From Zhouia spongiae (GTDB taxonomy: Bacteria > Bacteroidota > Bacteroidia > Flavobacteriales > Flavobacteriaceae): DNA of 64,000 bases. Below, piece after piece: positions 35,857 to 63,218 of the stretch. The translations under genes and the position numbers were made by a program. The first letter of the stretch is position 1. Every line of letters starts with the position of its first letter. The stretch is taken from contig NZ_CP094326.1 of the NCBI RefSeq assembly GCF_022760175.1, positions 372,001 to 436,000 of the forward strand, read 5' to 3'. The notes under the pieces are model-generated. The model made no database searches. It was not told the origin of the DNA and worked only from the letters and a program-made list of their open reading frames with translations.

Positions 35857-37095
35857 TTAGCCTTCTATTTCCTTTATTTTAAACGCTAATTTTTTCATAT
35901 CCGTCCAAAAATCAGGATAGGATTTAGAGACAACCCCGGCGTCATTTATGATTATAGACGTCCTTAATGCCAAGGGAGCGAAAGCCATGGCCATTCTATG
36001 ATCGTTATAAGTATCAATAGCGACATCTTTATTCATTGATGAAGATGATTTTAAATACAATTCCTTATCTGTTACTTCTATAGACGCTCCTAGCTTCCCT
36101 AGCTCCGTTTTTAAAGCTTCCAGTCTGTCGGTCTCTTTTATTTTCAGGGTATGCAATCCGCTAAGACTACATGCAATACCGAGCCCAAACGCTGTAACAG
36201 AAATTGTTTGCGCTATATCGGGGGCGTCGCTCAGATCGATCTCTATAACCTTGTTCAAATCTATTTCTTCTGTTTTCTCCAGAATGATATTTTCTCCTTC
36301 GTATTGGGTGATAACACCAAAATCTTTATAAACTTCGGCCAATACAGAATCGCCCTGTAAACTGTTCTCTTTATAACTGGACAATTTAATTTTTGTTCCT
36401 ACTTCTGATAATGCAGCAACACTATAAAAATAGGATGCAGAGCTCCAGTCTGATTCTACTACAAATTCAGCCCGGCTTAACTCTGTATGGAAAGGTTTTA
36501 CAGTAATTTCATTTCCTTCAAAAATTGTTTCTGCTCCGATATGATCTAACAATGCCAATGTCATTTTCATGTATGGGACAGAGGTGATTTTTCCTTCCAG
36601 GGACAGATGCAAACCACTATCTAATGTCGGTGCCACCAGCAATAATGCCGAAATATATTGACTGCTGACATTAGCCGCCATTGAAACTTTATTTTTGCTT
36701 ATTCTCTTTCCGCTTATTTTTAATGGCGGATATCCTTCATTTTCGGTATACTCTATTTCTGCGCCTAACTGCCTGAGTGCATCTACCAATATTCTTATAG
36801 GACGTTCCTTCATCCGTTTCGAACCGGTAAGGACAACCTCTCTCCCTTCCTGTGTTGCGAAAAAAGCTGTTAAAAACCGCATGGCTGTTCCGGCATGATG
36901 GATATCGACCTCTCCATTGATGATCTTCAGCCCCTTCTGCATCACTTCTGAATCGTCTGAATTTGATACGTTATCAATTTTTAACGACGGATAGAGTGCC
37001 TGTAAGAGCAAAGCCCTGTTACTTTCACTTTTCGATCCTGTTATTTTGATATGTTCTGATAATTTTCCCGTTGAAGATTGAAGGTGTAAATTCAC
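35857..37095 (-). CDS. aroA: 3-phosphoshikimate 1-carboxyvinyltransferase (EPSP synthase), GTG start
   Basis: 412 residues from the chosen GTG. Shikimate-pathway enzyme joining shikimate-3-phosphate and phosphoenolpyruvate. Typical segments: ITGSKSESNRALLLQAL, HHAGTAMRFLTAFF, LTGSKRMKERPIR, ESDWSSASYFY, KETDRLEAL and NDHRMAMAFAP. The open frame begins at an ATG (37167) that overlaps the mazG-like stop, but the first 24 codons would be a translated terminator hairpin (37127-37155). GTG at 37095 gives VNLHLQSSTGKL, the normal N-terminus. Other aromatic genes lie 2 kb upstream. Confidence 0.93.
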   Translation of the reverse strand: MNLHLQSSTGKLSEHIKITGSKSESNRALLLQALYPSLKIDNVSNSDDSEVMQKGLKIINGEVDIHHAGTAMRFLTAFFATQEGREVVLTGSKRMKERPIRILVDALRQLGAEIEYTENEGYPPLKISGKRISKNKVSMAANVSSQYISALLLVAPTLDSGLHLSLEGKITSVPYMKMTLALLDHIGAETIFEGNEITVKPFHTELSRAEFVVESDWSSASYFYSVAALSEVGTKIKLSSYKENSLQGDSVLAEVYKDFGVITQYEGENIILEKTEEIDLNKVIEIDLSDAPDIAQTISVTAFGLGIACSLSGLHTLKIKETDRLEALKTELGKLGASIEVTDKELYLKSSSSMNKDVAIDTYNDHRMAMAFAPLALRTSIIINDAGVVSKSYPDFWTDMKKLAFKIKEIEG

Positions 37096-37126
37096 TTTTA
37101 TGTATTTATAAAATGAGGTGTAAATT

Positions 37127-37155
37127 AAAAAAAGACCCCTGTTTTTACAGGAATC
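37127..37155 (-). terminator. Intrinsic terminator after the MazG-like gene
   Basis: The minus-strand stem GATTCCTGT/ACAGGGGTC (9 bp with two G-U pairs) with loop AAAA is followed by TTTTTTT. It begins 12 bases past the stop at 37167. Confidence 0.7.
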
Positions 37156-37166
37156 GTAAAATAACA

Positions 37167-37493
37167 TTATTTAAGCTTTTCGTTACTATGGTGCCGATCG
37201 TGATCACGTTTCGTCTTTTTGTCCATTTTTTTATCAAACGCAGCTTGTAAATCTATTCCGGTTTGATTCGCCAAACACAATACCACAAAAACCACATCGG
37301 CAAGTTCTTCTCCAAGATCCTTCTCCTTATCGCTCTCCTTTTCACTTTGCTCTCCGTAACGTCTCGCTATAATCCGGGCTACTTCGCCTACTTCTTCTGT
37401 TAGCTGGGCCATATTGGTTAATTCATTAAAATAACGAACTCCATGCTCCTTGATCCATTTATCTACAGCTAATTGTGATTCCTTTAAATTCAT
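37167..37493 (-). CDS. MazG-like nucleotide pyrophosphohydrolase
   Basis: 108 residues, one all-helical MazG/NTP-PPase domain. The metal-binding pattern EEVGEVAR (about 30-37), then GEELADVVFVVLCLANQTGID, gives the ExxE...ExxD arrangement. It probably hydrolyses non-canonical or excess nucleoside triphosphates. It lies 3 bases after dtd, another clean-up enzyme, in the same transcript, and is followed by a terminator. Confidence 0.88.
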   Translation of the reverse strand: MNLKESQLAVDKWIKEHGVRYFNELTNMAQLTEEVGEVARIIARRYGEQSEKESDKEKDLGEELADVVFVVLCLANQTGIDLQAAFDKKMDKKTKRDHDRHHSNEKLK

Positions 37494-37496
37494 TTC

Positions 37497-37949
37497 CTAT
37501 TCTTTATTCTTAGTATCTATAATTATTGTCACCGGTCCGTCATTAACGAGTGTTACTTTCATATCGGCTCCAAACTCACCGGTTCCTACTTTTTTCTGAA
37601 GATCTCCTTCTAATTGTTTGACAAAAGCCTCGTATAGCGGAATTGCAATCTCCGGTTTGGCTGCTTTGATATATGAAGGTCTATTCCCCTTTTTGGTTGA
37701 TGCATGTAGCGTAAATTGACTAACGACAATTGCATCGCCTCCTGAATCAATCAAAGACCGGTTCATGACCTCATTATCGTCGTTAAATATCCTGAGGTTA
37801 GCTATTTTCCTTGAAAGCCATTCTATATCATTTTTCTCGTCATCGTTTTCAATTCCAAGTAAGACCAGCACCCCGTGACCTATTGATGATTTTACGTTTC
37901 CGTCAATAGTTACACTCGCCTCTGTAACTCTTTGTATTACTGCTCTCAT
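37497..37949 (-). CDS. dtd: D-aminoacyl-tRNA deacylase
   Basis: 150 residues. The opening MRAVIQRVTEASVTIDG, the cross-subunit SQFTLHASTKKGNRPSY and the C-terminal NDGPVTIIIDT (containing the Gly-cisPro-type GPVT) are diagnostic of Dtd. It removes D-amino acids, and some glycine, mischarged on tRNA. It is transcribed with rsgA upstream (29-base gap) and the MazG-like gene downstream. Confidence 0.97.
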   Translation of the reverse strand: MRAVIQRVTEASVTIDGNVKSSIGHGVLVLLGIENDDEKNDIEWLSRKIANLRIFNDDNEVMNRSLIDSGGDAIVVSQFTLHASTKKGNRPSYIKAAKPEIAIPLYEAFVKQLEGDLQKKVGTGEFGADMKVTLVNDGPVTIIIDTKNKE

Positions 37950-37978
37950 TTACTTACTGAACTTTTTTATTCCCGGGA

Positions 37979-38929
37979 TCAATCTTCCCCATAAATATCC
38001 GTACGATAAGGCTCATCGTCTCCTTCTAATAATTGTATATAGCTTCGGTATCTCGACCACGAAACCTGATTATTATCCAAGGCTCTTTTTACAGCACATT
38101 TGGGTTCATCTACGTGCAGACAGTTATTAAATTTACACTCGCTCTTCAAAGCGAAAAACTCGGGGAAATAATCGCCTATTTCATCTTTCTCCATATCGAC
38201 AACACCAAAGCCTCTGATTCCGGGAGTATCAATAATCCGTGCATCAAAACTCAGATCATACATTTCGGCAAAAGTAGTTGTATGCTGTCCTTGCCGGTGG
38301 TACTCTGAAATCTCTGCCGTCTTCAGGTCAAAACTGGGTTCTATCATATTCACCAAAGTAGATTTCCCTACCCCGGAATGACCGGAGAACATCGAGGTCT
38401 TCCCTTTCATCATTTCTTTTACCTGATCTACATTTTTCCCGGTCTTGGCAGAAATCCCCATACATTCATAGCCTATACAGCGATACATTTGAGCCAGGTA
38501 TTTAGCTTGTATTAACTCTTCTTCTGTATAGGTATCTGTCTTATTGAATACTAAAACCGCCTTTATATCGTATGCCTCGGCAGTTACCAGAAACCTGTCG
38601 ATAAACGAGGTATAGGTTACCGGATTGCTGATGGTTATCAACAAAAACACCTGATCTATATTAGCGGCTATTACGTGTGTTCGCTTAGACAGGTTTACCG
38701 ATTTACGAACAATATAATTTTCACGATCGTGAATTTCTTTAATGACCCCTACAGCCTCATCTCCTAAATGCTCCAGATCGAAATCAACGACATCGCCTAC
38801 GGCTACCGGATTGGTGCTTTTGATTCCTTTTATCCGGAATTTCCCTTTTATCCGGCATTCATATATTTCTCCTTCCGGAGTTTTTACCGTGTACCAGCTC
38901 CCGGTAGATTTATAGACGGTTCCTGTCAT
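37979..38929 (-). CDS. rsgA: Small ribosomal subunit biogenesis GTPase RsgA
   Basis: 316 residues from the chosen ATG. OB-fold N-terminus, then a circularly permuted GTPase: G4 FNKTD comes first, G1 FSGHSGVGKSTLVN later, then G3 DTPGIRGFG, and a C-terminal zinc motif with CKFNNCLHVDEPKCAV. It helps release factors from the nascent 30S subunit. The frame reaches 38968, but the family starts at MTGTVYKSTGSWY, so 38929 is used. Confidence 0.96.
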   Translation of the reverse strand: MTGTVYKSTGSWYTVKTPEGEIYECRIKGKFRIKGIKSTNPVAVGDVVDFDLEHLGDEAVGVIKEIHDRENYIVRKSVNLSKRTHVIAANIDQVFLLITISNPVTYTSFIDRFLVTAEAYDIKAVLVFNKTDTYTEEELIQAKYLAQMYRCIGYECMGISAKTGKNVDQVKEMMKGKTSMFSGHSGVGKSTLVNMIEPSFDLKTAEISEYHRQGQHTTTFAEMYDLSFDARIIDTPGIRGFGVVDMEKDEIGDYFPEFFALKSECKFNNCLHVDEPKCAVKRALDNNQVSWSRYRSYIQLLEGDDEPYRTDIYGED

Positions 38930-38974
38930 TAAAATTATTTTATGGCAAAATAAGCAAATCTCAGCCAATAAATT

Positions 38975-38999
38975 AAAAAAAGCCCTTTTCAGGGCCCTT
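38975..38999 (-). terminator. Intrinsic terminator of the Phe/Tyr operon
   Basis: The minus-strand stem AAGGGCCC/GGGCTTTT (8 bp, two G-U pairs) with loop TGAAAA is followed by a T-run. It lies just past the DAHP synthase stop and separates the operon from rsgA. Confidence 0.7.
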
Positions 39000-39005
39000 A
39001 ATTTA

Positions 39006-40088
39006 TTAAGATTTCAATATCTTTTCCTGATGATTGATCGATTCCTGGTGAATAGCTTTAAACATCTTGAGCACAAACTCTTCACTAAGTCCTCTTTGCT
39101 CTCCTTCCAAAATCATGTTTCCTAAAATCTCATTCCATCGTTTTGACTGAAGAACCGCTACATTCTTTTGCTTTTTCAGGGTTCCGATTTCATCTGCCAC
39201 TTTCATACGTTTGCCCAGGGTATCGATAAGGCTGTTATCTATTACGTCTATCTGTGCCCGCAACTGGTTTAGTTTATTATTGTATTCAGCTTCCGCATCT
39301 GTTTCTTTTCTTATTTTCAGATCTTTCATGATTTGCACCAGCCTTTCAGGGGTAACTTGTTGTGCAGCATCACTCCATGCCTTGTCCGGATCAAAATGGG
39401 TCTCGATCATCAAACCGTCGTAATTAAGATCTAAAGCGGTCTGAGAAACATCAAAGATCAAGTCCCTGTTTCCACTGATATGCGAAGGATCACAAATAAG
39501 CGGAAGATCCGGGAACTTATTTTGTAACTCAATAGCTAATTGCCACTCAGGAATATTTCTGTATTTGGTTTTTTCGTATGTTGAAAACCCTCTGTGAATT
39601 ACCCCTAATTTTTCAATACCGCTTTTATATAAACGTTCTATCCCGCCGAGCCATAACGACAAATCCGGATTTACAGGGTTTTTCACCAATACTATTTTAT
39701 CTGTTCCGTCTAAAGCATCAGCTATTTCCTGAACTATAAACGGACTTACCGTTGACCTGGCTCCGATCCATAGAAGATCTATGTCTGCTTCCAGGGCCAG
39801 CTCTACATGATTTGCATTAGCGATCTCTGTAGCCGTTTTCATTCCGGTTTCTTCTTTTACTTTTTTCAACCAGTTAAGTCCAAGTGCTCCAACTCCTTCA
39901 AAGTTTCCGGGACGAGTACGCGGTTTCCAAATTCCGGCTCTGTAATAGTTTACATCGGTATCTTTTAACTGATGTGCAATATTTAGTACCTGCTCTTCTG
40001 TTTCTGCACTACATGGCCCTGCAATCACCAATGGGTGATCCAACCCTAAATCATCTAACCATGTTCTTAACTCCTTTGAATTTTCCAT
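39006..40088 (-). CDS. Bifunctional DAHP synthase/chorismate mutase (type II)
   Basis: 360 residues. The N-terminal KDO8P/DAHP-synthase-like barrel (1-260) has VIAGPCSAETEEQ, GIWKPRTRPGNFEG, DPSHISGNRDLI and LMIETHFDPDKAWSDA. A C-terminal helical AroQ chorismate mutase (about 268-358, LRAQIDVIDNSLIDTLGKRM) follows. It catalyses the first shikimate-pathway step and the branch step to prephenate. In related fusions the mutase domain acts as the allosteric sensor for the synthase. It is the last gene of the Phe/Tyr operon, 15 bases after tyrA. Confidence 0.95.
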   Translation of the reverse strand: MENSKELRTWLDDLGLDHPLVIAGPCSAETEEQVLNIAHQLKDTDVNYYRAGIWKPRTRPGNFEGVGALGLNWLKKVKEETGMKTATEIANANHVELALEADIDLLWIGARSTVSPFIVQEIADALDGTDKIVLVKNPVNPDLSLWLGGIERLYKSGIEKLGVIHRGFSTYEKTKYRNIPEWQLAIELQNKFPDLPLICDPSHISGNRDLIFDVSQTALDLNYDGLMIETHFDPDKAWSDAAQQVTPERLVQIMKDLKIRKETDAEAEYNNKLNQLRAQIDVIDNSLIDTLGKRMKVADEIGTLKKQKNVAVLQSKRWNEILGNMILEGEQRGLSEEFVLKMFKAIHQESINHQEKILKS

Positions 40089-40103: not shown

Positions 40104-40964
40104 TTAATTTGTCTTGATTGATATTCCTGCTAAAATTTCTTTTATTCTGTTTGTATTTGCCATTTCATCATAGATAGAGGAAAAGTCATTTTGCTCTATC
40201 AGTTCCTTGAATCTTAAAAGGTTTCCTATGTACTCTTCCAGGGTTTCGATCACATTCTCCCTATTATGCTCAAAAATGGGTGCCCACATGGCCGGAGAAC
40301 TTTTAGCCAGCCTTACTGTGCTTTCAAAACCACTACCCGCCATATCGAATATGTCGCGTTCATTTTTTTCTTTTTCTATGACAGTTTTCCCCAACATAAA
40401 CGAACTTATATGCGACAAATGGGAGACATAAGCTATATGCTTATCGTGTGCCTTGGGTTCCATATACCGGATCCGCATTCCGAGATCCTGGAAAATTTTC
40501 ATTGCTCTTTCCTGCAATTTAAAAGCTGTTTTTTCAACTTCACACACGATATTGGTTTTCCCGTTATACAAACCTTCAATAGCTGCATTAGGACCTGAGA
40601 ACTCCGTACCTGCAATTGGGTGTGTAGCTAAAAAGTTTCTTCGTTTTTTATGGTTTGCTACTTCACTACAAATTAACGATTTAGTAGAACCTACATCAAA
40701 AACAAGAGCATCGTCATTTACGATATCCAAAACTTCCGGAACTACCTTTAGCGCTGCATTTACCGGTATTGACACAATGACTACTTCAGCCTCCTTAAGA
40801 TCGATCATTTCTGAAGCCTCATCAATAAAACCAAGGGTTAACGCCTTTTGAATATGTTCTTGATTTGTATCTATTCCAAAGATCCTGACTGAAGGATTGG
40901 CCCTTTTTATATCGATCGCCATCGATCCGCCTATGAGTCCCAATCCTATTATAAATACATTCAT
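40104..40964 (-). CDS. tyrA: Prephenate dehydrogenase
   Basis: 286 residues. The N-terminal NAD-binding fold has VFIIGLGLIGGSMA (3-16), then DVGSTKSLI and ATHPIAGTEFSG, typical of prephenate/arogenate dehydrogenases, with a helical dimerisation domain after it. It makes 4-hydroxyphenylpyruvate for tyrosine. It lacks a C-terminal ACT domain. It sits between the aminotransferase and the DAHP synthase/mutase. Confidence 0.94.
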   Translation of the reverse strand: MNVFIIGLGLIGGSMAIDIKRANPSVRIFGIDTNQEHIQKALTLGFIDEASEMIDLKEAEVVIVSIPVNAALKVVPEVLDIVNDDALVFDVGSTKSLICSEVANHKKRRNFLATHPIAGTEFSGPNAAIEGLYNGKTNIVCEVEKTAFKLQERAMKIFQDLGMRIRYMEPKAHDKHIAYVSHLSHISSFMLGKTVIEKEKNERDIFDMAGSGFESTVRLAKSSPAMWAPIFEHNRENVIETLEEYIGNLLRFKELIEQNDFSSIYDEMANTNRIKEILAGISIKTN

Positions 40965-41000: not shown

Positions 41001-42146
41001 TTAAAACCTATTAATTGCCTCTTTAATTTTACCTTCCGGAACACATAACGAAAAACGGATATACCGGTTTCCATTGCTTCCGAAAATACTCCCCGGTGTA
41101 ATAAAAATGCTTTGTTTATATAAAATATCGTCTATAAATGCTTCTACAACGTCTATTTTTTCAGGGAGTCTTGCCCAAACAAACATGCCAACTGCATTCC
41201 TGTCGTACTTACAGTTCAGTTTATCAGCCAATTGATATATCAGTTCTCTTCTTTTCTGGTATTGTTCGTTAATACTCTCATACCAATTATCTGAAAGCTC
41301 CAGAGCCTTCACAGCCCCTTTCTGCAGGCCATAGAACATCCCGCTATCCATATTGCTTTTTACTTTGATCACCGCCTGAATATGTTCTTTACTCCCAAGA
41401 ATGAATCCTACCCTCCATCCGGCCATGTTAAAGGTCTTACTTAATGAATTTAACTCTAATGCTACTTCTTTTGCCCCTTTCTCGGATAAAATGCTATTAT
41501 GTTCTTTATTAAGTACAAAGCTGTATGGGTTGTCATTTACCAAAAGGATATTATTTCTCTTTGCGAAAGCGATCAATGCTCCGAACATCTTTTTATCTCC
41601 CCTAGCTCCTGTTGGCATATGCGGATAATTCAACCACATTATTTTCACTTTAGACAAATCCTGCTGTTCAAGTGCTTCAAGGTCGGGCATCCACCCGTTT
41701 TCTTCTTTTAAATCGTAGTAATTTGGCACAGCACCCACTAACTTTGTGACAGAAGTATAGGTAGGATAACCCGGATTCGGTATTAACACCTCATCACCTT
41801 CATTTAAAAAAGCCATACTGACATGCATGATCCCTTCTTTTGATCCCAGTAATGGCAGCACTTCATTATTGTAATCTACCTCTACTTTGAAATGTTTTTG
41901 GTAAAAAGCCGAAATGGCTTTTCTCAGTTCCGGCAATCCTACATAGCTCTGGTATTGATGGGCTTTTTCATGGGTCAAAGATGCTGTTAAAGCATCCAGG
42001 ACTTCAGGTGCTGGAGCCATATCCGGACTTCCTATTCCCATGTTAATAACAGGCTTTCCTTCTGCTATTAACTGACTTACCTCTCTTAGCTTTTTAGAGA
42101 AATAGTACTCTTGTACTGTATCTAATCGTTTTGCAAACTGAATCAT
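41001..42146 (-). CDS. Class I/II PLP aminotransferase (aromatic)
   Basis: 381 residues, fold-type I. The PLP lysine lies in LNSLSKTFNMAGWRVGF, and GSKEGIMHVS, NPGYPTY and NYPHMPTG are conserved cofactor and substrate segments. Its place between pheA and tyrA, with a 4-base overlap with pheA, indicates the last transamination to phenylalanine and tyrosine. Sequence alone does not exclude a broader LL-DAP- or alanine-type specificity. Confidence 0.9.
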   Translation of the reverse strand: MIQFAKRLDTVQEYYFSKKLREVSQLIAEGKPVINMGIGSPDMAPAPEVLDALTASLTHEKAHQYQSYVGLPELRKAISAFYQKHFKVEVDYNNEVLPLLGSKEGIMHVSMAFLNEGDEVLIPNPGYPTYTSVTKLVGAVPNYYDLKEENGWMPDLEALEQQDLSKVKIMWLNYPHMPTGARGDKKMFGALIAFAKRNNILLVNDNPYSFVLNKEHNSILSEKGAKEVALELNSLSKTFNMAGWRVGFILGSKEHIQAVIKVKSNMDSGMFYGLQKGAVKALELSDNWYESINEQYQKRRELIYQLADKLNCKYDRNAVGMFVWARLPEKIDVVEAFIDDILYKQSIFITPGSIFGSNGNRYIRFSLCVPEGKIKEAINRF

Positions 42147-42970
42147 AGTCTAGCATTTTTATATTCCCCGAGTACTTTAAAGTGCTCAGCCATTATTTCT
42201 AAAACAGACTTGGCCTTTTCAAAATCCGAGTACTTTTCAAAAGTCACATCCACAAAAAACGAATATTTCCATGGTGTTTCTATAATAGGCAATGATTGAA
42301 TCTTCGTTAAATTCATTCGGCAATCGCTCATAACGTTAAGTATGGTAGCCAGGCTCCCCCTTTTATGATCCAACTCAAATTTTAACGATGCCTTATTGAT
42401 CTCATCTTCCGGAATAGCCGAGTTTTTAGTCTGGACGATCACAAATCGGGTAGCATTATTTTTTATGGTCTGAATTTCAGGCCCCAAAATTTCCAAATCG
42501 TACATCTTAGCTGCCGCATAACTCGCAACAGCACCTACACCATCGAGCTGCTGTTCATGTATTCTTTGTGCCACTTCGGCCGTATCTGCATCTTCAATAA
42601 GTTTTATATGCGGGTATTTCTTGAAAAATTCTTTGGTTTGCAGTAATGCCATCGGATGCGAATACACCTCATTAATATCTTCTATCTCCTGCCCTTTTAA
42701 AGCCATTAAATTTTGATGGATATTGATATAATGTTCACCGATTATATGCAGGTGATTAGCATCGATCAAAGCATAATTTGGAATTATGGATCCGGCTATT
42801 GAATTCTCAATAGCCATTACCGCCATGCCACATGTCTTATCCAGAAGACTATCTACCAGTTTATCAAAAGACAGACATTCATGAACATCTACCCCATCAT
42901 GAAAATACTCCTGTGCCACCAAATGGTGAAAAGATCCTCTGATTCCCTGTATTGCAACTTTAGTTTTCAT
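42143..42970 (-). CDS. pheA: Prephenate dehydratase
   Basis: 275 residues. The catalytic domain (1-180) has VAIQGIRGSFHHLVA and the diagnostic NNATRFVIVQT near 170-180. The C-terminal ACT domain (about 190-270) includes the Phe-binding-type KIQSLPIIETPWKYSFFVD. It turns prephenate into phenylpyruvate and is probably Phe-inhibited. It is the first gene of the operon; an intrinsic terminator ends 12 bases before its ATG and a Phe-rich leader ORF lies upstream, indicating attenuation. Confidence 0.96.
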   Translation of the reverse strand: MKTKVAIQGIRGSFHHLVAQEYFHDGVDVHECLSFDKLVDSLLDKTCGMAVMAIENSIAGSIIPNYALIDANHLHIIGEHYINIHQNLMALKGQEIEDINEVYSHPMALLQTKEFFKKYPHIKLIEDADTAEVAQRIHEQQLDGVGAVASYAAAKMYDLEILGPEIQTIKNNATRFVIVQTKNSAIPEDEINKASLKFELDHKRGSLATILNVMSDCRMNLTKIQSLPIIETPWKYSFFVDVTFEKYSDFEKAKSVLEIMAEHFKVLGEYKNARL

Positions 42971-42982
42971 TTAATTTTTATG

Positions 42983-43013
42983 TAAAAAAAAAGTCCCGAT
43001 TGCTCGGGACTTT
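42983..43013 (-). terminator. Attenuator terminator in front of pheA
   Basis: The minus-strand stem AAAGTCCCGA/TCGGGACTTT (10 bp, perfect, loop GCAA) is followed by TTTTTTTTT, ending 12 bases before the pheA ATG. A strong terminator placed inside the leader of a biosynthetic operon, after a Phe-rich leader ORF, is the classic attenuator layout. The competing arm CGGGGCT near the end of the leader ORF can pair with AGTCCCG of the 5' stem. Confidence 0.88.
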
Positions 43014-43039
43014 AATATTATATACTTTTTCACATATAC

Positions 43040-43117
43040 CTATAACAGCCCCGTTCCTCTCTTAAAGAAATAAAAGAAGAAATAAAAAAAGTTCCAGTTA
43101 TAAATAGTTGCGATCAT
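43040..43117 (-). CDS. Phenylalanine leader peptide (pheL-like)
   Basis: A 25-codon ORF, ATG to TAG, on the minus strand, 69 bases upstream of pheA. Residues 9-18 read NFFYFFFYFF; in total it has seven Phe, three Tyr and one Trp. By analogy with enterobacterial pheL, a ribosome stalled on these codons would leave the segment CGGGGCT (codons 22-24) free to pair with the 5' arm of the terminator and allow read-through. A ribosome reaching the stop would cover it and let the terminator form. It is far too short for routine gene calling. The name is by function only; no homology to pheL is claimed. Confidence 0.85.
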   Translation of the reverse strand: MIATIYNWNFFYFFFYFFKRGTGLL

Positions 43118-43577
43118 TTGTTTGTCTTAAATCTGCTGCTAATGTAAATATTAATTTGTAAAATAAAACCCATGAACCTTATTTTTTCGAAAAAAAAATA
43201 TTTTCATTACTTTTTTTTTGGATTTTGAATTAAATATCACAGATATTAAAAAATTGACAACAGCTATTTAAGCCTCTTCAACATGAGTTTAACACAACAC
43301 AGATACCAAATGATCAATAATCTAATACAATATCATACAAGTATAAAGGAGTGCAGCCGGGATGCCTGAACCAAATGCCTTTAAAATAAGGTTTCGGCTT
43401 TCGTGATAGCCGAAGGAACAGACCAGACATAAAAACATTAACAAACCGACTAACAATCGAAAACAAACCGGACTCACGTCTCTTTAATTATTTACTACCG
43501 TTACATTCTATATAATTAGAAAACTTCTTCATTTTAAAAGATTAATCAATTACCTTTCGGAAAATTAGAAGTCCTTT
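43118..43577. other. Divergent intergenic region between the Phe leader and pncB
   Basis: 460 AT-rich bases without a gene. It must hold the leader/pheA promoter (minus) and the pncB promoter (plus), though neither has a clean -33/-7 pair. A 7-bp hairpin TTCGGCT/AGCCGAA with an 8-base loop occurs at 43393-43414. Confidence 0.4.
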
Positions 43578-53393: not shown

Positions 53394-53533
53394 ACGAGCT
53401 GCTTTAGCTTATTCCCTTCTATCACAATACCGTTTGCGATTAGAAAGGTTTATTATTTAAATTGATTGTTAAAAAGAAAGGAAAGCGTAATACGTAGAAT
53501 ATGCTTTGTTATCTGTCCTTTTATCCTGAACCA

Positions 53534-53628
53534 TTCAAGAAAAAAGGTAGAACGTAGCACCTTCTCTATTTGCATAGAGGGTTGCTAAGGCTTCAACGGG
53601 TCTAATCCCTTCACCTTTCTTGATAACA
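53534..53628 (-). ncRNA. SAM-I (S-box) riboswitch upstream of split metH
   Basis: On the minus strand the S-box core is clear: TTATCAAGAAAGGTG, AGGGATTAGACCCGTTGAAG, CCTTAGCAACC, a variable P3-P4 arm, then GGTGCTACGTTCTACC. TCAAGAAA pairs with a TTTCTTGA on the 3' side as P1. It should bind S-adenosylmethionine and lower metH expression. The motif GATAACA at 53507-53513, complementary to TGTTATC at the aptamer's 5' end, lies downstream and also occurs after the second copy, so it may belong to the expression platform. Confidence 0.9.
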
Positions 53629-53697
53629 TCATCATTTTAATGAACTAGTGTGCAAAGATACACACATTTGTTTTTTCTGCAAACCTCTGTATCCAAG

Positions 53698-62960: not shown

Positions 62961-63040
62961 TCATTTTTTATTGACTTTGAAAAAGGTTATAAAGAAAGGT
63001 GTAGAAAATCACAAAAGAAAATTCTTATTGTTATCTATCC

Positions 63041-63140
63041 TCAAAAAAATAATCCGAGGTAGAACGTAGCACCTTCTCTGACAAATCAAAGGGTTGCTAA
63101 GGTTTCTCCGGGTCTAATCCCTCCACCTTTCTTGATAACA
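63041..63140 (-). ncRNA. SAM-I (S-box) riboswitch upstream of the MetX-ThrA fusion
   Basis: Minus-strand core: TTATCAAGAAAGGTGGAGGG, ATTAGACCCGGAGAAACC, TTAGCAACCC, a P3-P4 arm, then GGTGCTACGTTCTACC. Most of the core is identical to the copy at 53534-53628, while the P3 loop and the last arm differ, as expected for two functional aptamers rather than a mere repeat. GATAACA (63029-63035) downstream can pair with TGTTATC at the aptamer's 5' edge. No run of T after a stable hairpin is obvious, so control could be translational. Confidence 0.9.
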
Positions 63141-63218
63141 TTTCTCAGTAAGTCGTTGAACTTTTGAAATGCAAAGAAACATATTATTATTAAAACAGCC
63201 AATACATTGGCTTTAATT

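Follow-up and report, generated by a model that had tools for sequence, protein, structure and literature searches.

A probable leader-peptide attenuator before the pheA operon of Zhouia spongiae and its range among the Bacteroidia

Related leaders and attenuators

The pheL leader of enterobacteria carries Phe codons and is not known to carry Tyr codons. We analyzed an element upstream of pheA in Zhouia spongiae (Flavobacteriaceae) that resembles pheL and the corresponding Rfam family RF01859 (Phe_leader) in having a U-rich stretch of Phe codons followed by a terminator, but differs in mixing Tyr codons into the leader and in preceding a pheA that encodes a prephenate dehydratase (PDT) without a mutase domain and heads a four-gene operon. 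RF01859 was the best Rfam match of the element (E-value 0.0015) and scored 30.9 bits, below its gathering score of 55; RF01743 (leu-phe_leader) scored 13.6 bits against a gathering score of 70. The likeness to the latter, a leader for Leu and Phe in Lactococcus, is by name only. No T-box was matched at gathering scores in the window, by which we mean the whole stretch of 64,000 nucleotides that was analyzed (contig NZ_CP094326.1, positions 372,001 to 436,000), nor at E-values up to 10 within its positions 42940–43200.

The closest description within the lineage comes from the transcriptome of Flavobacterium psychrophilum (PMC9723704), which reports strong clues for leader-peptide attenuation before amino acid biosynthesis operons and, separately, a structured 5′ element before pheA that other genera of the Flavobacteriaceae share. 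The original prediction for our locus, made from the letters of the window, knew of no described example in the lineage, and this claim does not stand: the F. psychrophilum element lies before the same gene in the same bacterial family, is conserved and has no Rfam hit, and the same mechanism was proposed there for amino acid operons. The main-text section of that study treats the subject in a few sentences; the main text does not name the pheA element outright as one of the attenuators, and the section does not give the codon tract, the arms, the spacing, or the range beyond Flavobacteriaceae. Among the matches listed in open-licence PMC, no paper is devoted to the pheA element, and older surveys (Vitreschak 2004, Lopatovskaya 2010) may list Bacteroidetes attenuators. 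The element belongs to a known kind of device that was already suggested in the lineage; added here are its full anatomy, the co-variation of its arms, their spacing, the class-wide range, and the case for Phe and Tyr as joint signals.

Anatomy of the leader and its operon

All parts of the element lie on the minus strand and are listed in the order of transcription, in window coordinates.

43139–43146, minus strand: possible –7 promoter box TACATTAG, a variant of TAnnTTTG
43040–43117, minus strand: leader ORF MIATIYNWNFFYFFFYFFKRGTGLL, from the ORF list and kept in relatives
43090–43113, minus strand: segment 1, forming the 5′ side of the 1:2 hairpin, from folding and from own versus permuted pairing in 194 leaders
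43064–43090, minus strand: putative regulatory Phe/Tyr tract FFYFFFYFF, codons 10–18, from the tract composition in 193 unique leaders
43047–43053, minus strand: antiterminator arm CGGGGCU, with its partner at 43011–43005, from sequence, co-variation, and folding
43030–43052, minus strand: region of segment 2, forming the 3′ side of the 1:2 hairpin and sharing positions with both the antiterminator arm and the stop codon of the leader, from folding and permutation
43015–43043, minus strand: inner antiterminator helices, 43043–43034 with 43025–43015, from folding
43005–43011, minus strand: core of the terminator 5′ arm, AGUCCCG, common to antiterminator and terminator, from sequence and co-variation
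42990–43013, minus strand: intrinsic terminator stem-loop of 10 bp, from pattern, folding, and changes in 47 aligned relatives
42984–42992, minus strand: terminator run of nine T, three of them also in the stem, from sequence

The short ORF contains a run of codons for the operon's own amino acids: it comprises 25 codons and a TAG stop (43117–43040), with seven Phe, three Tyr, and one Trp, the first two counts being those originally read from the sequence. A scan of both strands of the window for short ORFs rich in one amino acid group and followed by a terminator returned eight matches, among which the pheA leader was the only one rich in Phe/Tyr. The region 42971–43140 folds ~5 SD better than its dinucleotide shuffles.

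The flavobacterial –7 consensus TAnnTTTG is placed at –12 to –5 (PMC9723704), and transcription possibly starts near 43134 if TACATTAG is such a box; of 126 family leaders, 100 have the pattern TAC.TTAG in the 60 nt preceding their ATG. Neither an exact TAnnTTTG box nor a full –33/–7 promoter was found within 43118–43420. An A stands at position –3 relative to the start codon in 79% of 128 family leaders; the leader of the window has a C.

Between the leader and pheA lies an intrinsic terminator (43013–42984 overall), with a stem at 43013–42990 of 10 perfect pairs and a loop of 4 nt, followed by the T run. Stem and T run agree with the original prediction, as does the layout around them, while both spacings needed correction by one nucleotide: the stem begins 26 nt after the ORF stop (27 had been given), and the T run ends 13 nt, rather than 12, before the pheA ATG at 42970. 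The predicted pairing of CGGGGCT (43053–43047) with AGTCCCG (43011–43005) is likewise present, consists of seven pairs including one G–U, and competes with the terminator; folding the leader yielded the two expected alternative structures, antiterminator and terminator.

The 1:2 hairpin had no place in the original prediction. In the window, the first leader codons (43113–43090) pair with 43052–43030. Across 194 leaders, the pairing of a leader's own segments averaged –11.9 kcal/mol versus –8.8 kcal/mol for permuted segments, the best of 2000 permutations reaching –9.5 kcal/mol, and own pairing exceeded permuted pairing also in the family set and the class-wide set taken apart. These comparisons support the identification of the hairpin with the protector hairpin of classical attenuators, which would predict termination when the leader is not translated. 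The window has, in addition, an inner hairpin in which tract codons 13–16, with Y16 among them, pair with a purine stretch at 43064–43054.

The genes downstream form the series pheA–aminotransferase–tyrA–DAHP synthase/mutase, an order that Pfam and NCBIfam models bear out.

42143–42970, minus strand: pheA, prephenate dehydratase, first gene of the operon (Pfam PF00800, E-value 1e-52; NCBIfam prephenate dehydratase models below their cut-offs)
41001–42146, minus strand: class I/II aminotransferase (Pfam PF00155)
40104–40964, minus strand: tyrA, prephenate dehydrogenase (NCBIfam NF006307 above cut-off; Pfam)
39006–40088, minus strand: DAHP synthase with a C-terminal chorismate mutase (Pfam PF00793 and PF01817)
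38978–38999, minus strand: terminator-like hairpin after the DAHP synthase gene, possible operon end, by pattern match only

The neighboring upstream gene, for nicotinate phosphoribosyltransferase (43578, plus strand), is divergent, so the terminator is not the end of an adjacent upstream gene on this strand. Behind the operon, minus-strand genes for an RsgA-type GTPase, a D-Tyr-tRNA deacylase, a MazG-like protein, and EPSP synthase are tightly packed at 35857–38968; two of these, the deacylase and EPSP synthase, are connected with aromatic amino acids.

Conservation among relatives

We applied a single rule to the regions upstream of pheA, requiring an ATG ORF of 7–60 aa with at least five F/Y/W among its last 28 residues and a terminator placed from 6 nt before to 75 nt after the ORF end. 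The rule was passed by 204 of 239 unique real 300-nt regions versus 6 of 492 dinucleotide shuffles (each of 246 regions, including duplicates, was shuffled twice). A similarity-gathered set, made up of the best matches among those listed, contained 137 unique pheA loci, 127 of them from Flavobacteriaceae, where the sample leans to close relatives, and 10 from other families of the order; a class-wide set added 102 further unique loci, 5 of them from Flavobacteriaceae. Locus L002 was dropped as lying on the same contig as L031, L125 is the same as L034, and six class-wide loci coincide with family loci.

Among the Flavobacteriaceae loci in the matches listed, 121 of 127 pass the single rule, and an aromatic-rich leader with a terminator was found before pheA in 124, with one more locus partial. 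L025 fails the single rule and passes with another terminator finder; in L018 and L113 the element is displaced upstream, with the terminator ~530 and ~340 nt ahead of the pheA match; L124 is truncated where its contig ends, with tract and terminator visible; and L024 and L060 (2 of 127) have no such element upstream of pheA. Conservation of a Phe-rich ORF and terminator before pheA in close relatives, with compensating stem changes, was the check set beforehand for the attenuator reading, and this is what we found. In L322/L018 (genome G014), ~530 nt of repeat-like units with hairpins lie between the intact attenuator and pheA.

Of the loci from other families of the order, 7 of 10 pass (L064, L072, and L073 are without the element), as do 76 of 102 class-wide loci, or 71 of 97 once Flavobacteriaceae are set aside, leaving 26 of the 102 without it. 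Only genomes that have the gene enter the class-wide figure, a PDT match being present in 116 of 396, and five of these 116 places were left out (G807, G561, G498, G471, and G342). L305, counted as positive, is probably false; L224, counted as negative, passes if up to 700 nt are searched, with a Trp/Tyr-rich ORF 440 nt upstream that we doubted and kept as negative. Outside the class, none of 29 PDT loci, taken from the best-scoring 30 of a phylum-wide search and several of them from one family, had a leader with a terminator, and this suggests that the Bacteroidia leader has an origin separate from that of pheL.

Co-variation of the arms

Antiterminator arms were located by best pairing with three G–C pairs required, and permutation served as the control. 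The pairing score of own arms averaged 17.7 versus 11.4 for arms permuted among the 204 loci (highest of 2000 permutations, 12.7), a permutation that ignores relatedness. The terminator core fits one pattern in 163 of the 204 loci, and among these the core and arm are CCC–GGG in 74, CTC–GAG in 71, and CCT–AGG in 10, with one G–U in 8, counts that are not independent events. Six of the 204 leaders had no usable arm: three had none with three G–C pairs, and in three it was placed before the tract.

In the 47 aligned relatives, 97.5% of the cells of the terminator helix are paired versus at most 59.5% when the helix is slid, and both-sided changes occur in 8 of the 10 pairs. The antiterminator excludes the terminator, overlaps the leader end, and shows compensating changes, with a weaker signal on an unfitted alignment: in a plain MAFFT alignment of the 47 sequences, A:B (antiterminator) pairing was found in 75.1% of cells and in 56.0% at the best slide, two of five covariation measures were not above shuffles, and a slide of +1 gave more both-sided changes (19 vs. 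14 cells), one arm type being shifted by one column. A PheA tree with 58 rows calls for seven or more changes of terminator core type; 26 of its 55 inner branches are weak, and the well-supported branches alone force at most four gains or losses of one core type. L017 (CTC) is nested in a well-supported group that is otherwise CCC. Residues downstream of the tract go with the RNA arm: loci with CCC cores have, for instance, RGTGLL, and those with CTC cores NETLYV. The comparisons support a concerted change of the terminator and antiterminator arms.

Spacing, ribosome model, and proposed mechanism

The antiterminator arm starts a median of 11 nt (10th–90th percentile 8–12) after the last clustered aromatic codon in 198 leaders. 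The start falls within 5–14 nt of the tract in 189 of the 198 (95%) versus 63% for letter-shuffled arms, and because shuffled arms reach this range so often, the information lies in how tight the spacing is and not in the position by itself. Measured from where the stop codon ends, the arm lies anywhere from –37 to +23, with an SD of 8.1 versus 3.7 nt relative to the tract.

We modeled a ribosome with an assumed footprint of 15 nt on either side of the P-site. Eight A-site codons between 6 and 18, the last Phe, were tried with the RNA made up to the terminator 5′ arm. The antiterminator formed at every one of them with –16.1 kcal/mol or less, another hairpin contributing to this energy at early codons, and dropped to –6.8 kcal/mol at codon 19 and –2.5 kcal/mol at codon 20. 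With the terminator 3′ arm included, no fold was more stable than the terminator at any of the 13 codons tested, and at codon 18 the terminator had –18.0 kcal/mol versus –16.1 kcal/mol for the antiterminator stage; the switch must therefore be set by the order of formation, with the antiterminator first. Under the assumed footprint, and in keeping with the spacing in the 198 leaders, a stall at the regulatory codons would free the arm and a ribosome at the stop codon would cover it.

We put at roughly 93% the probability that the element controls transcription of the pheA operon by ribosome-mediated (leader-peptide) attenuation. The pheL-like logic originally proposed gains support from the conservation, the compensating changes, and a spacing suited to a stalled ribosome, and from these we infer translation of the leader, stalling, and antitermination. 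When charged Phe and Tyr tRNAs are ample, the ribosome would pass FFYFFFYFF to the stop codon and cover CGGGGCU, upon which the terminator would form and the transcript end after ~150 nt. When Phe or Tyr tRNA is short, the ribosome would halt in the tract with its leading edge just before CGGGGCU, and the free arm would pair with the terminator 5′ arm once this is made, allowing the polymerase to read into pheA and the three genes behind it. In the event of no translation, segment 1 (codons 2–10) would pair with segment 2, mask the arm, and favor termination.

Amino acids sensed and alternative explanations

The eight-codon tract of 193 unique leaders consists of 53% Phe, 28% Tyr, and 4% Trp. 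In its last five codons, Tyr accounts for 144 of 595 codons among 119 unique leaders from Flavobacteriaceae and for 143 of 330 among 66 class-wide leaders; the other single-base neighbors of Phe codons are found 0 and 3 times, respectively. If U-richness were all that is constrained, Tyr would not be the one neighbor spared, so Phe and Tyr are both probably read, and the suggestion that came with the original prediction, that Tyr may be sensed as well, gains support from the substitution pattern. Trp is found in the eight-codon tract of 64 of the 193 unique leaders and anywhere in the leader in 106 of 204, and W8 of the window falls within segment 1 of the 1:2 hairpin; we consider Trp doubtful as a third signal. 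The codon counts on 193 leaders omit L240, L285, L292, L293, L299, and L305, the tests of 1:2 pairing and of the last five codons omit these six and L301, and the last-five test further excludes loci from the order's other families. Rows were also omitted if they had no arm or if their tract was too short.

Leaders are also found before other amino acid operons. In related genomes, hisG is preceded by a leader with three or more His in 15 of 15 loci and trpE by one with two or more Trp in 15 of 16, the window's own genome being included in both. A Phe/Tyr rule was passed by 1 of 15 hisG and 1 of 16 trpE regions. These flavobacterial leaders resemble the pheA leader in being short, with a run of His or Trp codons and a terminator before the first gene, and differ in the amino acids. 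The identity of the amino acids thus follows the operon, which we count in favor of the attenuator. Arms were obtained in 12 of 15 hisG leaders by the pairing test, one of them misplaced; in the 16 trpE loci the test gave no arm or a misplaced one. Leader-peptide attenuation seems to operate at his and trp in the genome of the window too. Its leader before hisG (L178) is MNNIQLHHHHFHTCAQAR and that before trpE (L196) is MKNIINNTWWWISLRQKS, each with a terminator.

An attenuator might read Phe as its only signal, the Tyr codons being neutral stand-ins that limit the U run or serve RNA pairing. Enterobacterial pheL, which has Phe codons and is not known to have Tyr codons, would be a precedent, and RNA pairing may help fix some of the residues, with Y6 and W8 located in segment 1 and codons 13–16 in the inner hairpin. 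The last five codons, however, lie outside segment 1 as tested for 1:2 pairing, and it is in these codons that Tyr is frequent and the other neighbors of Phe codons are not; moreover, the Phe codon TTC is equally able to break U runs, and the operon makes both Phe and Tyr. We regard Phe as the sole signal as unlikely.

More distant explanations take the function away from the codons. The leader peptide is conserved and very hydrophobic, as a nascent-chain arrest peptide or a small hydrophobic protein might be, with the terminator secondary, but the tract has no fixed residue, Phe and Tyr replace each other freely, the residues after the tract follow the RNA arm, and the comparable hisG and trpE leaders hold other amino acids, making an acting peptide very improbable. 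That U-rich DNA in an AT-rich region readily gives Phe codons, and that no Rfam family reaches its cut-off at the element, would fit either an ordinary terminator beside a chance ORF or a new type of riboswitch or T-box. Against them stand the small number of shuffles that pass the rule, the near absence of Leu, Ser, Ile, Val, and Cys neighbors of Phe codons, the co-variation of three strands, and the lack of a T-box match in the window at gathering scores; on the shuffles, the codon neighbors, and the Rfam results, we rejected these explanations as having a negligible chance of being correct.

Genomic matches and meaning of the element

A covariance model built from the 47 sequences was searched in 40 genomes, and 125 candidates per genome were scored. 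Among these candidates, the window's own genome had two matches besides the pheA site and no other convincing site. The better one and its counterpart in the same genus are terminator hairpins that follow a gene we take to be rhodanese-like and have no aromatic leader; the third own-genome match and the match in genome G022 likewise show no leader. The match in G014 is the displaced pheA attenuator of L018.

If the attenuator reading is true, leader-peptide control would be common for aromatic amino acid genes in Bacteroidia with a PDT and, in Flavobacteriales, would extend to his and trp genes. The element would be a natural candidate for a dual-input attenuator, responding to Phe or Tyr, and for an Rfam family. 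Ribosomes of this bacterial group are reported to work without Shine–Dalgarno pairing (PMC6847099; PMC9976891). That a single leader sensing Phe and Tyr is an old and widely kept device of the class, implying close coupling of polymerase and ribosome at leaders without Shine–Dalgarno initiation, is in our estimate an evenly balanced proposition. As attenuation needs polymerase and ribosome in step, the leaders could serve as a simple reporter of transcription–translation coupling in the class.

The window also contains two SAM riboswitches (Rfam RF00162), at 63028–63141 and at 53506–53629 (minus strand), both over the gathering score.
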